NCBI GenBank assembly: GCA_902582315.1 | Contig: CACHRP010000002.1 | Coordinates: 62,001-126,000 of the forward strand | Reading direction: 5' to 3' | DNA: 64,000 bases | Source: an uncultured Pelagibacteraceae bacterium | GTDB taxonomy: Bacteria; Pseudomonadota; Alphaproteobacteria; Pelagibacterales; Pelagibacteraceae | Shown: piece after piece, positions 51,446 through 57,334 of the stretch | Numbering within the stretch: the first letter of the stretch is position 1 | Layout: the number at the start of each line of letters is the position of its first letter | Translations under genes and position numbers: made by a program | The notes under the pieces: model-generated | The model's database searches: none | The model's input: the letters and a program-made list of their open reading frames with translations, nothing else | What the model was told of the DNA's origin: nothing

Positions 51446-53833
51446 TTACTGAATACTGGCTTGAGATTCGTCTTTTTTCTTTTCAGAAGAAATTTTTTCT
51501 ACCTCTACCCACTCAACAGGTTTTAATTGTTTGGTTAAAGCAATTTTCAAAACATCTTCTACAATTTCAACTGTAGTGATTTTTATATCCTCTTTCACTT
51601 TTTTTGGTATGTCGGTAAGATCTTTTTCATTTTCTTTCGGTATTAAAACTTCTTTTATACCCGCTCTATGAGCAGCTAATAATTTCTCTTTTAAACCACC
51701 AATTGGGAGAACTTGTCCGGTTATTGTTACTTCACCTGTCATAGCAAGATCTCTTCTTACTGGTATTTTAGTTATTGAAGAAACAATAGATGTAACCATA
51801 GCAATTCCAGCTGATGGACCATCTTTCGGAGTTGCTCCTTCAGGTACATGGATATGAAAATCTTTTTTCTCAAAGATAGGTGGAATAATCCCAAATTCTA
51901 AACTTTTAGATCTTACGTAAGATTTAGCAGCTTTTACAGACTCTTGCATTACGTCCCCTAGCTTACCAGTAATTTGCATTCTGCCTTTACCTGGCATATT
52001 TACAGTCTCAATTTTTAAAATTTCACCACCAAATTCTGTCCATGCTAAACCTGTCACTATTCCAATTTTGTCATTATTTTCTAATTCGCCGAACTTGAAT
52101 TTTTTAATTCCTAAAAAATCACTAATATTATCCTTATTAATTTTTACTGTTGTTTCCTCTGAAGAAACAATTTTTTTGACTACTTTTCTTGAAACTTTAA
52201 AAATCTCTCTCTCTAAATTTCTTACTCCAGATTCTCGTGTATAATTTCTTATGATTTGCTTCAATGTTCCATCTGAGATATCCATTTCTCCTTTTTTAAC
52301 ACCATTTTCTTTGATAGCTTTAGGTAATAGAAACTTATCAGCAATATTAATTTTCTCATCTTCTGTATAGCCAGGGATTCTAATTACTTCCATCCTATCA
52401 AGTAAAGGCGGTAGTATATTTAAAGTGTTTGCTGTAGTAACGAACATCACATCAGATAGATCGTAATCTACCTCTAAATAATGATCATTAAATGTAGTAT
52501 TTTGTTCTGGATCTAAAGCTTCAAGTAAAGCTGATGATGGATCTCCTCTATAATCATTACCAATTTTGTCAATTTCATCTAAAAGAAATAATGGATTCTT
52601 TGTGCCAGCTTTTTTCATCATTTGAATTATTTTTCCTGGTAACGAACCTATGTATGTTCTTCTGTGACCTCTTACTTCTGCTTCATCTCTTATTCCACCT
52701 AGAGAAATTCTAACAAATTGTCTGTTAGTTGCTTTAGCTATTGACTTACCTAAAGATGTCTTTCCAACACCCGGGGGTCCCACTAAACATAAAATTGGGC
52801 CTTTTATTTTTTCCATTCTCTTTTGAACAGCTAAAAACTCTACAATTCTCTCTTTTACTTTATCCAAACCAAAATGATCTTCATCTAAAATTTTTAATGC
52901 TTTGTCCAAATCAATGTCAACTTTATCCTTTTTATGCCAAGGCAAATCTATCATCCAGTCTAAATAATTCCTTACAACCGTTGCTTCAGCTGACATGGGA
53001 CTCATACTTCTAAGCTTTTTAAGCTCTGACATGCATTTTTTTTGGACTTCTTTAGGCATTTTCGCTTTCAGTATTGCCTTGTTTAAATTTGAGGTTTCAT
53101 CCTTTCCGTCTTCAATCTCTCCTAACTCTTTCTGGATAGCTTTCAATTGTTCGTTAAGATAATATTCTCTTTGAGTTTTCTCCATTTGAGTTTTAACTCT
53201 ACCTCTAATCCTTTTTTCTACTCCAATTATACTTGTTTCATTATCCATAATTTTAATCACGGCATTTAATCTTTTTTTGATATCAGCTGTCTCAAATATT
53301 TGTTGTTTTTCTGAAATCGTAATATTTAGATGAGAAGCAATATTATCAGCTATTTTTGATGGTTCCTTAAGGTCTTTAATACTTGTGATTGTTTCATTTG
53401 AAATTTTTTTATTAATAGAAGATAGTTTTTCTAATCTTTTTAATGCTGTTCCGGCTAATGCGTTTAAATCATCACTCTTTTCATCAATATCGTTGAAATA
53501 TTCGAAACTGCAATTTATAAATTTATCTTCATCTTTAAAATCTGTAATTTTTACTCTTCTATTTCCCTCTACTAACACTTTTACAGTTCCATCTGGCAAT
53601 TTTAGTAGTTGCAAAATATTACTCTCACATCCATATGAAAAAATATCATTTTTCTTTGGATCGTCTACTTCTGAATTTTTTTGAGTAACTAATATAATTT
53701 TTTTATCACTTTGCATCACTTCATTAAGTGCAGAAATTGATTTATCTCTGCCAACAAACAGTGGTATTACCATACTTGGGAATACAACTATGTCTCTTAA
53801 TGGCAATAATGGTAGATTTCGTTTAATTTCCAT
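51446..53833 (-). CDS. lon: ATP-dependent protease La
   Basis: Cytoplasmic AAA+ serine protease for damaged and regulatory proteins. The 795 aa product (E. coli 784 aa) has the N-terminal LON substrate domain ([20 protein letters not shown]). The AAA+ module carries Walker [14 protein letters not shown] and Walker [13 protein letters not shown]. The protease domain has the Ser/Lys dyad in [11 protein letters not shown] and [16 protein letters not shown]. It follows clpX by 61 bases. hupB, common downstream in this order, is absent; tRNA-Val follows instead. Confidence 0.98.
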
Positions 53834-53894: not shown

Positions 53895-55166
53895 CTAGGC
53901 CGCTGTTGTTTTTGTGTTTTTATTTTTACTTTGTGCATTTTTTGAATGTACAATAATTGGTTGCGAAAGCCCTTTGGCCGCACCCGAATCTACTATAACT
54001 TCATCAACATTTTCTAAACTAGGTAATTCAAACATGGTTTTTAATAATATGTTTTCAAGTATCGATCTCAAACCTCTTGCACCAGTTTTTTTTGAAATTG
54101 CTTTTAATGCAATCTCTTTGGTTGCATTCTCTTTAAAAATTAATTTTGCTCCCTCTAGTTTAAATAACTCTTGGTATTGTTTGATTAAAGAATTTTTTGG
54201 CTCTTGTAGAATTTTGATTAATGATTTTTCGTCTAAATCCTCTAGCGTAGCTATAATCGGAAGCCTTCCAATGAATTCTGGTATTAAGCCATATTTAAGT
54301 AGATCTTCCGGCTCCAAAGTTTTCATTAATTCTCCAGTTTTTTTCTCATCGATACTTTTAACTTCAGCTCCGAAACCAATAGCTGTACCTTTGTCTCTTT
54401 GTGAAATTATTTTATCTAATCCAGCAAAAGCCCCACCACATACAAATAAAATATTTGTTGTATCTACCTGTAAAAATTCTTGTTGTGGATGTTTTCGACC
54501 TCCTTGTGGAGGAACACTTGCAATAGTGCCTTCCATTATTTTTAACAAAGCTTGTTGTACTCCTTCTCCAGACACATCACGTGTAATTGAAGGGTTTTCA
54601 GACTTTCTACTAATTTTATCAACTTCGTCTATATAGACTATTCCTCTCTGAGCCTTTTCTACATTATAGTCAGCTGCTTGTAATAATTTTAAAATAATAT
54701 TTTCTACATCTTCACCAACATACCCCGCCTCTGTTAGAGTTGTAGCATCAGCCATAGTAAAAGGTACATCTAAAATTCTTGCAAGTGTTTGTGCTAGAAG
54801 AGTTTTTCCACAACCTGTAGGACCCACCAATAAAATATTTGATTTAGCTAATTCTACGTTTTTATTTGTTTTAGACTCATAATTTAATCTTTTATAATGA
54901 TTATGAACCGCAACAGATAAAACTTCCTTTGCATGTTTCTGACCAATTACGTAGTCATCTAATATCGAACATATTTCCTTAGGTGAAGGCAAGCCGTCTT
55001 GATGCTTAACTAAAGTATCCTTACTTTCCTCTTTAATTATGTCCATGCATAATTCAACACACTCATCACAAATAAAAACTGTTGGGCCTGCAATAAGTTT
55101 TCTTACTTCATGCTGACTCTTTCCGCAGAAAGAACAGTAAAGAATATTTTTATTATTTGAACTCAT
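53895..55166 (-). CDS. clpX: ATP-dependent Clp protease ATP-binding subunit ClpX
   Basis: AAA+ unfoldase that feeds substrates to ClpP. The 423 aa product has the N-terminal zinc-binding domain with four Cys (CSFCGKS and [10 protein letters not shown]). Walker A is [14 protein letters not shown], Walker B is [10 protein letters not shown], and the pore loop is GYVGEDVE. The ClpP-docking IGF loop is represented by [10 protein letters not shown], followed by the sensor-2 region KTGARGLRS. Length equals E. coli (424 aa). A 93-base gap separates it from clpP and carries a palindrome next to a TATATA box. Confidence 0.98.
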
Positions 55167-55174
55167 AAATTATT

Positions 55175-55195
55175 TATAAAACGAATCGATTTATA
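55175..55195 (-). promoter_or_regulatory. palindromic operator-like site upstream of clpX
   Basis: A 21-base palindrome with one mismatched pair: outer arms TATAAA/TTTATA around the core CGAATCG. It ends nine bases before the clpX ATG and overlaps a TATATA box at 55192-55197 reading toward clpX. The same core occurs in the palindrome at the clpP start. It could be a repressor site or, in RNA, a small hairpin; no known regulator is identified. Confidence 0.5.
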
Positions 55196-55259
55196 TACTT
55201 TATTACAATTAAGTTTAAATAATCAAGTATAGGTTGATCTAATTACTAGATATTGTGAA

Positions 55260-55868
55260 TTAATCTCTTTTTTCTACAACTTTATCTATTAGACCAAAGT
55301 CTTTAGCTTGAAGGGGTGTCATAAAATTATCTCGTTCAAGGGCAGATTTAATTTCATCCACAGATTTACCTGTATGCTTTGAATAAATTTCATTTAATCT
55401 TTTTTTTAATGATAATACCTCATTTGCATGTATCTCTATATCTGTTGCCTGTCCTTGAAATCCAGCAGATGGTTGGTGAACCATTACTCTTGCATTTGGT
55501 AAAGAGAATCTTTTTCCTTTAGTCCCAGCTGCTAATAAAAATGAACCCATTGATGCAGCTTGTCCTATGCATAAAGTTGAAACGTCGGGTTTAATAAATT
55601 GCATTGTATCATAAATTCCTAGACCTGCTGTAACGAGTCCACCTGGGCTATTTATATAAAAAAATATATCTTTTTTTGGATTTTCAGACTCCAAGAAAAG
55701 AAGTTGTGCAGTTGCGAGCGACGCGACCTGATCGTTTATAGGTCCAGTTAGAAAAACGATCCTCTCTTTAAGTAATCTTGAATAAATATCATACGCACGC
55801 TCACCACGGCTAGATTGTTCTACCACCATTGGTATTAATGTATTCATATGTTCGTTTATTTTATTCAT
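55260..55868 (-). CDS. clpP: ATP-dependent Clp protease proteolytic subunit ClpP
   Basis: Serine protease forming the tetradecameric barrel used with ClpX. The 202 aa product has [33 protein letters not shown], the nucleophile Ser in [13 protein letters not shown], the His in [13 protein letters not shown], and the Asp near AKDFGLID. Two starts are possible: the ATG at 55868, or the one at 55847 ([11 protein letters not shown]), which matches the usual mature N terminus. Choosing the second would place the upstream palindrome at a normal operator distance. Confidence 0.97.
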
Positions 55869-55884
55869 ATAACGATTCGTTATA
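55868..55884 (-). promoter_or_regulatory. perfect 17-base palindrome at the clpP start
   Basis: On the minus strand TATAACG-AAT-CGTTATA is a perfect palindrome with core CGAATCG, shared with the clpX site. Its last base is the A of the first clpP ATG. A TATAAG box at 55885-55890 directly abuts it on the upstream side, the geometry of a repressor operator at the transcription start. The centre GAATC is also a GANTC methylation target in Alphaproteobacteria with CcrM. Confidence 0.55.
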
Positions 55885-55900
55885 CTTATACAACTTGTGA

Positions 55901-57334
55901 TTACTTTTTGCTAACTTTTTTTGCTTTGGCTGGCTTCTTACTAACAGATTTTGTTTTTTTCTTTGTTTGTTTTTTTTCAATTGGTGCATCATTCTCTTTA
56001 TCTAGAACAATATCGTTACTATCACGGCTCTGAGCTTTAATTTGCTTTTCATTTTCTACTTTTAAAATCTTTTCAGCTTCTTCTTTATTAATTGTTTTTT
56101 TGTTAGTTTTTGCTTTCAATTTTATAGCCTCAATAATTTTCTCCTCATAAATATTTCCTCGTAAACTCGCAACCGCTGACGGGTTTTTCTGATAATAATC
56201 CATTAAAAACTTTTCTTGACCTGGCATCATTCTTAATTGTTTCTGTATTTCAGATTGAATTTCATTTTCTTCAATTTTGATTTTATTTGCTTCTCCAAAT
56301 TCATTAAGCACCAACCCAACTTTTATTCTTTGTATTGCTTTTTTTTCGAATTCTTTGCTCTTTTTTTTTACTTCATCTTCTTTTAAGCCCTCAGTAATTA
56401 TTTTTAATTCTTGATCCACTAAATTTTGAGGTATTTCACTTACCTTATATTTTTCAATTTGATCAAGGATTTGTTTTTTGGAAAGCATATTAAGAGAGTT
56501 CTTGTATTCTTGATTAATTTGTTTCTCTAACAGAGATTTAAGATCATTTAAATCTTTTGCACCTAAATTTTTAGCAAATTCATCATTAATAGAAACTTTT
56601 TCAGGATTTTTTATGAATAATATTTTGCATAAAAATTCAGCATTTTTATTTGCAACATTCTTTTCAGGAAAGTTTTCTGGTAATTTGATCAGAATTTTTT
56701 TTTCGTCATTTTTTTTTACACCAATTAACTGTTTGTCAAACCCTTTAATAAATAAGTCTTTACCAAGTTCTAATTGTGTATTTTTTCCCTCATTACCTTT
56801 AAAATTTTTTCCATCTACAGTAGCTGTATAATCAAATGATACTAAATCACCATTTTTTGAGATAGCATTTTCATTTTCCTTAAAATTTTTTTGATTTTTT
56901 GCAATATCTTCTATTCTTTTATCAATTTCTTTTTTATCAATAGTTACTTCGTACTCATCAACTTTAATATTCTCTATTTGTTTTAAATCTATTTTTGGAA
57001 GTTCTGTAACTGAAATTATATATTCTAAATCCTTATCTTCACCATAAGTTTTTAGATCTATTTTTGGCTGTCCTGCAGGTTTGATTTTGTTATCACTTAA
57101 CGCCTTGGTACTTGTTTCTTTAAGAACTTTATCCAATACTTCACCAAATATAGCTTTTCCAAATTGTCTTTTTAATACTTCTTTTGGAACTTTCCCTGGT
57201 CTAAATCCTTTCAGTTGAACAGTTTTTGAAACCTCTTCATATCTTTCATTCAAATGATTATCTATAATTTCCTTTTCAACAAAGATCTTTAAATCTTTAC
57301 TTAAACCCTTTTTATTTTGAACTGTAACTTTCAT
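55901..57334 (-). CDS. tig: trigger factor
   Basis: Ribosome-bound chaperone and prolyl isomerase that meets nascent chains. The 477 aa product has the ribosome-binding domain with [19 protein letters not shown] (about 43-61). An FKBP-like domain spans about 150-240 ([32 protein letters not shown]), followed by a helical C-terminal chaperone domain. It is longer than E. coli trigger factor (432 aa) because of a Lys-rich low-complexity tail over roughly the last 30 residues. The start codon lies only ten bases after the 3' end of tRNA-Leu. Confidence 0.96.

Follow-up and report, generated by a model that had tools for sequence, protein, structure and literature searches.

A conserved GANTC site at the clpP and clpX promoters of Pelagibacterales, a candidate target of GcrA and CcrM

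The clpP and clpX genes of Pelagibacterales carry a real regulatory site centred on GANTC: among the loci that we read it extends over the whole order at clpX and over the family at clpP. Judged from sequence, the site is most likely a methylation-dependent promoter element rather than mainly a palindromic repressor operator. With moderate confidence, we propose that the GcrA/CcrM module acts directly on clpP and clpX and that the methylated site would lie at or just past the transcription start. The module is already known; clpP and clpX as its targets are apparently new.

The window is a stretch of 64 000 nucleotides from a draft assembly of an uncultured member of the Pelagibacteraceae (1.18 Mb, 91% complete, 28% G+C). 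In the part of the window described here a tig-like gene, clpP, clpX and a lon-like gene all lie on the minus strand (Table 1); we take the 477-aa gene upstream of clpP to be tig (trigger factor) and the 795-aa gene downstream of clpX to be lon. An earlier note, made from the sequence alone, described a perfect 17-bp palindrome touching the clpP ATG and a 21-bp palindrome with one mismatched pair lying nine bases before the clpX ATG. The first was confirmed from the sequence and by script, and its last minus-strand base coincides with the A that opens the clpP ATG; the second has the length and the single mismatch described, but the gap to the ATG is eight bases. Both are centred on CGAATCG, as had been said, and a scripted count found this heptamer twice in the window, exactly at the two palindromes. 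The -10-like boxes that had been placed beside them are likewise present on the minus strand (TATAAG, 55890 to 55885; TATATA, 55197 to 55192).

Table 1. Genes, palindromes, GANTC sites and putative promoter elements at clpP and clpX (positions in the window; a point marks a feature given without strand).
Feature	Position	Strand	Remarks
clpP	55260..55868	-	202 aa; passes NCBIfam cut-off TIGR00493
clpX	53895..55166	-	423 aa; passes NCBIfam cut-off TIGR00382
Gene upstream of clpP	55901..57334	-	477 aa; end 32 bases ahead of clpP ATG
Gene downstream of clpX	51446..53833	-	795 aa
17-bp palindrome at clpP	55868..55884	.	Perfect, with a central base; TATAACGATTCGTTATA; arms lost in most relatives
21-bp palindrome at clpX	55175..55195	.	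One mismatched pair; TATAAAACGAATCGATTTATA
GANTC site at clpP	55874..55878	.	Minus-strand GAATC; heptamer CGAATCG, 55873-55879
GANTC site at clpX	55183..55187	.	Minus-strand GATTC; heptamer CGATTCG, minus strand, 55182-55188
clpP -10-like box TATAAG	55885..55890	-	6 bases ahead of GAATC; putative promoter role
clpX candidate -10 TAAAGT	55197..55202	-	9 bases ahead of GATTC; tentative choice of hexamer
clpX alternative -10 TRTAAT	55202-55207	-	Gap of 14 to GATTC
clpX candidate -35 TTGATT	55221..55226	-	18 bases from TAAAGT; putative, chosen by eye

The count of CGAATCG in the window is by itself unremarkable, since 0.84 copies are expected by chance and 17 of 100 shuffles gave two or more. The window holds six perfect palindromes with arms of at least 8, and the one at clpP alone has two C-G steps in its core; the other five consist of A/T, but one has a C at its centre and another a C-G pair near its ends. 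In the 1.18-Mb genome CGAATCG occurs seven times, against 37 for the reversed-pattern control, and only the copies at clpP and clpX have AT arms of this type. A scan of the window for TATAA-N-CGAATCG-N-TTATA with up to three mismatches, close to a search that had been suggested, gave no match because the spacing of that pattern suits neither palindrome. A search of the genome collection, which possibly omits records very near the window's genome, gave 27 contigs with the exact clpP 17-mer; no title among the 27 names Pelagibacterales, and we took these matches as chance.

It is the core that is conserved. In the genus sample, 74 of 101 genomes gave a clpP match and 70 loci were read (genomes G007, G025, G030 and G074 had a match and were left out); one locus, L023, ends at a contig end and was left out of the clpP scoring, so clpP is scorable in 69. 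At clpP a GANTC stands 5-7 bases past a TATAAN box, in either orientation, in all 69. The heptamers are CGAATCA (52), TGATTCG (7), CGAATCG (4) and CGATTCG (2), with AGAATCA (2), CGAATCT (1) and AGAATCG (1) as rarer forms, so that YGATTCG is found on one or other strand in 65 of the 69. At clpX every one of the 70 loci has YGATTCG, as TGATTCG in 68 and CGATTCG in two. Across these genus loci the four fixed letters of GANTC at clpP are 100% kept, with A or T at the centre; at clpX GATTCG is 100% kept and the bases 6-10 ahead of the centre vary. The TRTAATAAAGTA block at clpX is well kept, as are other promoter bases. Many of the genus loci are close kin, yet the 17-mers at clpP come in 42 distinct forms and the 21-mers at clpX in 57, and the conservation is thus more than strain identity. 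The earlier note had said that it would count against its proposal if relatives lacked the palindromes or if the core occurred at background frequency; neither is what we find for the core.

An order-wide sample gave 100 genomes with clpP, from which 45 further loci were read (L249 was not scorable); together with the 74 genus genomes, six of which are shared, clpP was matched in 168 distinct genomes, and 115 loci were read in all. All 25 further loci of the genus show both sites, GANTC at clpP and YGATTCG at clpX. Five other genera of the family have TGATTCG ahead of clpX in 10/10 loci and GANTC near or at the clpP start in 10/10, as YGATTCG (4), TGATTCT (2) or TGAGTCG (4), the last running out of the ATG. 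In a second family TGATTCG is ahead of clpX, at variable distance, in all nine scorable loci; no site was found near the clpP start in 9/9 loci, where clpP begins within a few bases of the end of the upstream gene. The total across the order for YGATTCG at clpX is 114 of 114 scorable loci out of 115 read. Outside the order, the class gave 136 further clpX matches, of which we examined the best 28. YGATTCG is found in the roughly 100 non-coding bases upstream of clpX in only three of these best 28 of 136; GANTC near the clpX start is common there, but inside the clpX coding sequence. Class-wide conservation was accordingly rejected, and because the clpX feature is rare in the 28 outside-order loci it is assigned to Pelagibacterales. 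Among the same best 28 of 136 matches the site is present in 1/19 loci from genomes with GcrA and in 2/9 without; its rarity outside the order and its failure to track GcrA there count against GcrA and CcrM as the explanation.

The suggestion in the earlier note that CcrM might act on the site has gained ground: GANTC is at its heart, and the genome encodes both CcrM and a GcrA family protein. The latter scores 127 bits with PF07750 (cut-off 26.9), and its residues 2-48 and 101-147 align with PDB entry 7ye1, so that the DNA-binding and sigma-binding parts are both present. It is below the NCBIfam equivalog NF050816 (108.9 bits; cut-off 280) and is therefore filed as a member of the PF07750 family rather than as an equivalog. 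The CcrM has an N6_N4_Mtase domain and a C-terminal RAMA domain and matches PDB entry 6pbd over its full length (residues 9-354, E = 1.3e-137); with the NCBIfam equivalog NF050803 it scores 568.4 bits (residues 7-352), below the cut-off of 830. From its homology, this enzyme would methylate GANTC. Across the order, 100 of 117 genomes have a GcrA and 107 a CcrM; among the 76 good assemblies the figures are 71 and 74. Two genomes with no GcrA found, G157 (96% complete) and G196 (95%), have CcrM and retain both clp sites (L192, L193), and two with no CcrM found, G039 and G206, keep both sites (L031 and L194, respectively). These four genomes count against GcrA and CcrM, and assembly gaps may be the cause of the missing proteins; the pair without GcrA and the arm pairing at clpP (below) are the weightiest of the contrary points. 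Of the other three good genomes without GcrA, G104 was not scorable and G110 and G174 were not read.

GcrA is a sigma partner with DNA-binding and sigma-binding parts (PMC7403470), and it is reported to activate C. crescentus promoters in which a methylated GANTC stands as TGATTCG or YGAKTCK (PMC7987155); the criterion given there for such promoters is a site between -40 and +40 from the transcription start. This extended heptamer is present at both clpP and clpX. Several GcrA promoters are severely weakened when their GANTC is mutated (PMC3667746, PMC3885167). SAR11 has a CcrM homologue (PMC3973325), and GANTC is reported to be methylated genome-wide in Pelagibacter (PMC9516812; methylation also in PMC12570018). 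The arrangement resembles the GcrA/CcrM sigma70 promoters of C. crescentus (such as mipZ, ftsN and podJ): GANTC within YGAKTCK/TGATTCG stands by a -10-like box, and the genome encodes both GcrA and CcrM. The mipZ site is also near the transcription start and is required for full activity; the CcrM-activated ftsZ and mipZ promoters share a conserved GANTC motif needed for promoter strength, although that motif is CGACTC, unlike the YGATTCG found here (PMC3708114). The targets also differ, being clpP and clpX here, and ctrA is reported to be absent from Ca. P. ubique (PMC2877005). Among the papers listed on GcrA, CcrM or GANTC in SAR11 or Pelagibacter, we found none that names clpP or clpX as a GcrA/CcrM target in SAR11, and neither gene is mentioned in the main texts of PMC7987155, PMC3973325, PMC9516812 and PMC12570018.

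The direct evidence for clpP and clpX as GcrA/CcrM targets is the conservation of the core, its place by -10-like boxes, the presence of both proteins and the match to the published heptamer; from it we infer that both sites are methylated, that GcrA binds and activates there, and that the effect is timed with the cell cycle. The element would consist of a -10 box, about 6 to 9 bases and then GA(A/T)TC within YGATTCG (in either orientation at clpP). CcrM would methylate the GANTC adenines at the two promoters, sigma70-RNA polymerase would carry GcrA, the N-terminal domain of GcrA would read the methylated heptamer and GcrA would help the polymerase to open these two promoters. Once the replication fork has passed, the site would be half-methylated, and the supply of ClpXP could then track replication. 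Two published statements count against this proposal (PMC7987155): GcrA of Brevundimonas showed no extended heptamer preference, and when Ca. P. ubique was scanned for GcrA targets few were convincing.

A rather less likely explanation, which nevertheless deserves weight, is an unnamed DNA-binding protein (a repressor or an activator) acting at or just past the start, where the overlap with GANTC would make it methylation-sensitive or let it shield the site from CcrM. The place of the site, on or after the putative start, would suit a repressor, and in wild Pelagibacter 42 GANTC sites stayed unmethylated, including sites by groEL and sufE (PMC9516812). The arms of the palindromes bear on this explanation from both sides. 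Strict pairing about the GANTC centre is limited to GANTC itself in 63/69 clpP loci and 68/70 clpX loci. The 17-bp span at clpP is found in two of 69 loci, the window and L024, with differing letters, and a 15-bp span in L030; L024 and L030 (G044 and G004) represent a second lineage with a 15-17-bp clpP palindrome of its own. With one mismatch allowed, the clpX form reaches 21 bp in the window only (1/70 genus loci) and 17 bp in L009. Six clpP loci have a symmetric core, three of them with spans of 15-17 bp and two arm sequences (L008; L024 and L030). In pairing tests with kinship not controlled, 103 of 215 arm positions pair at clpP (43 distinct arm pairs) against 89.2 when re-paired, a level reached in 16/2000 trials; the six symmetric-core loci give 23/30 pairs against 16.8 (120/2000), and the clpX arms give 104/235 against 107.6 (1589/2000). 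The modest excess at clpP is better explained by a palindrome-reading protein than by GcrA, and clpX shows none. Moreover, the kept letters are those of the GcrA heptamer and the CcrM target, and the orientation at clpP is free. Symmetry may have a weak role at clpP, yet it is not the conserved feature. The picture in the earlier note of one site common to two promoters thus survives for the core, which relatives keep, but not for the long arms, which are mostly lost; its shared repressor is less favoured than the known activator GcrA, whose published heptamer matches the site. Operators common to Clp protease genes do exist elsewhere, those of CtsR in Gram-positive bacteria and ClgR in actinobacteria, and they are unlike YGATTCG.

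It is distinctly improbable that the site is a core-promoter or transcript-start element (a discriminator, an initiation or a ribosome-entry signal) under no methylation control, with clpX perhaps using a heat-shock sigma factor. The distances to the -10 and to the ATG are indeed short and nearly fixed at clpP and at a DUF2721 gene (below), and the genus loci shown repeatedly have an ACTTG block ahead of clpX, its CTTG presumably matching the -35 consensus of the heat-shock sigma factor. However, few promoters carry the motif (23 copies of YGATTCG in the window's genome, ten of them outside genes), and the flips of orientation at clpP (CGAATCA in 52 loci, TGATTCG in seven) speak against an RNA signal; the same flips disfavour the small RNA hairpins that had been suggested for the two palindromes. 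At clpX positions 1, 2 and 6 of TAAAGT are each 97% kept in the genus loci. Counted from the putative -10 boxes, the site would begin near +1 at clpP and near +4 or +9 at clpX. One fixed -10 distance for all sites was rejected, the gap being six at clpP and nine or 14 at clpX, and several other YGATTCG sites have no clear -10; the varying gap and the sites without a good -10 count against GcrA and CcrM. So does the position at or past the predicted +1, unlike the C. crescentus cluster of such sites between -35 and -10 (PMC4287350); according to that paper, only 31% of GcrA-bound cell-cycle starts have GANTC just upstream, and timing varies with site position. That the palindromes are meaningless chance is scarcely credible: the rarity and differing letters of the long spans and the 27 contigs with the exact 17-mer would fit, but every scorable clpX locus read in the order and every scorable genus clpP locus read has the core, which refutes chance for the core.

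The distribution of the motif in the genomes favours GcrA and CcrM in one respect and counts against them in another. YGAKTCG occurs 48 times in the window's genome (G000), and 38 and 39 times in G012 and G082, two further genomes of the genus; it is scarce in all three, as the reversed pattern is far commoner (186, 171 and 203, respectively). By ORF caller, 10 of the 23 YGATTCG sites of the window's genome are outside genes. For YGAGTCG, 20 of 25 sites were examined (five were not fetched), and only one is outside protein ORFs, in tRNA-Leu (p = 0.005). One YGATTCG site, L139, may be inside a gene with a missed start; without it and the tRNA site the figures are 9/23 and 0/20. This preference for YGATTCG outside genes supports GcrA and CcrM, with centre T favoured, unlike the YGAKTCK of C. 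crescentus; for this genome the centre-G form was set aside as part of the motif, since protein ORFs contain 19 of its 20 examined sites and a tRNA the remaining one. Against this, GANTC as such is hardly enriched between genes in the window (8/102, where non-coding sequence is 4.9% of bases with the same kind of ORF caller), which counts against GcrA and CcrM. GANTC is also scarce in the window, 102 sites against 165 expected, and some pentamers of the same letters are equally scarce.

A small regulon that includes the DUF2721 gene probably exists, since 47 of the 48 loci scored for this gene are laid out as at clpP. Of 59 genomes matched, 50 loci were tried, and G186 and G109 were not scorable. 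In the first set, YGATTCG stands six bases past a CATAAT or GATAAT box in 28/28 scored loci, which mirrors the TATAAG, six bases and GAATC of clpP. In the further set, GATTCG is present in 19/20 (the genus 10/10, genus g5 8/8, genus g4 1/2); the g4 locus with GATTCG has a gap of seven and a flanking A, and G204 is without the site. In three loci (L117:1501 of G000, L113 and L152) the arrangement reads TTGTAA-N17-CATAAT-N6-YGATTCG and adjoins the ATG; if the -10 is right, the DUF2721 transcript would be nearly leaderless.

If clpP and clpX are GcrA/CcrM targets, the supply of protease may be coupled to the cell cycle, and DNA methylation would be linked with protein turnover. The work yields a short, concrete list of genus-, order- and family-level candidate targets: clpP, clpX and DUF2721. 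SAR11 includes some of the sea's commonest cells. A broader idea, which we regard as speculative and unlikely, is that SAR11, reported to lack CtrA, runs a GcrA/CcrM cell cycle through proteolysis: fork-driven methylation at clpP and clpX would set ClpXP, and ClpXP (with Lon) would remove the proteins of the module. Were it true, this loop between ClpXP and GcrA/CcrM would be a two-part oscillator without a response regulator.

The earlier note had said that presence at other proteolysis or stress genes would support an operator. In G000, G012 and G082 the site was not seen to mark such genes; it stands at a mixed handful of genes, and several YGATTCG sites are shared, gene for gene, by two or all three of these genomes. 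A 438-aa gene of G012 was rejected as an order-wide member, being found in only 3/78 genomes. A tiny Lys/Arg-rich ORF (21 aa in G000, 27 aa in G012; loci L137, L150 and L153) has two facing sites upstream, CGAATCR-N2 or N3-YGATTCG, in three of three genomes and is followed by a hairpin-like repeat. A Suv3-like helicase gene (L006, L149 and L154) has CGATTCG 78-79 bases upstream, again in three of three genomes, and in at least G012 the site adjoins a GAAC...GTTC-like box. At recA of G012 and G082 (L130:1501 and L123:1501) TGATTCG is just downstream of GAAC-N7-GTAC, which we take to be a LexA-like box; recA is absent from the sites of the window's genome. In G082 and G012, YGATTCG lies 7-8 bases ahead of an acetate/propionate-CoA-ligase-like gene (L126 and L127); the gene divergent from it is presumably a proteorhodopsin, and no NCBIfam family was given for one of the two proteorhodopsin-like genes. 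In G012 and G082, YGATTCG is also found between divergent pilM-like and pilT-family genes (L148 and L151).
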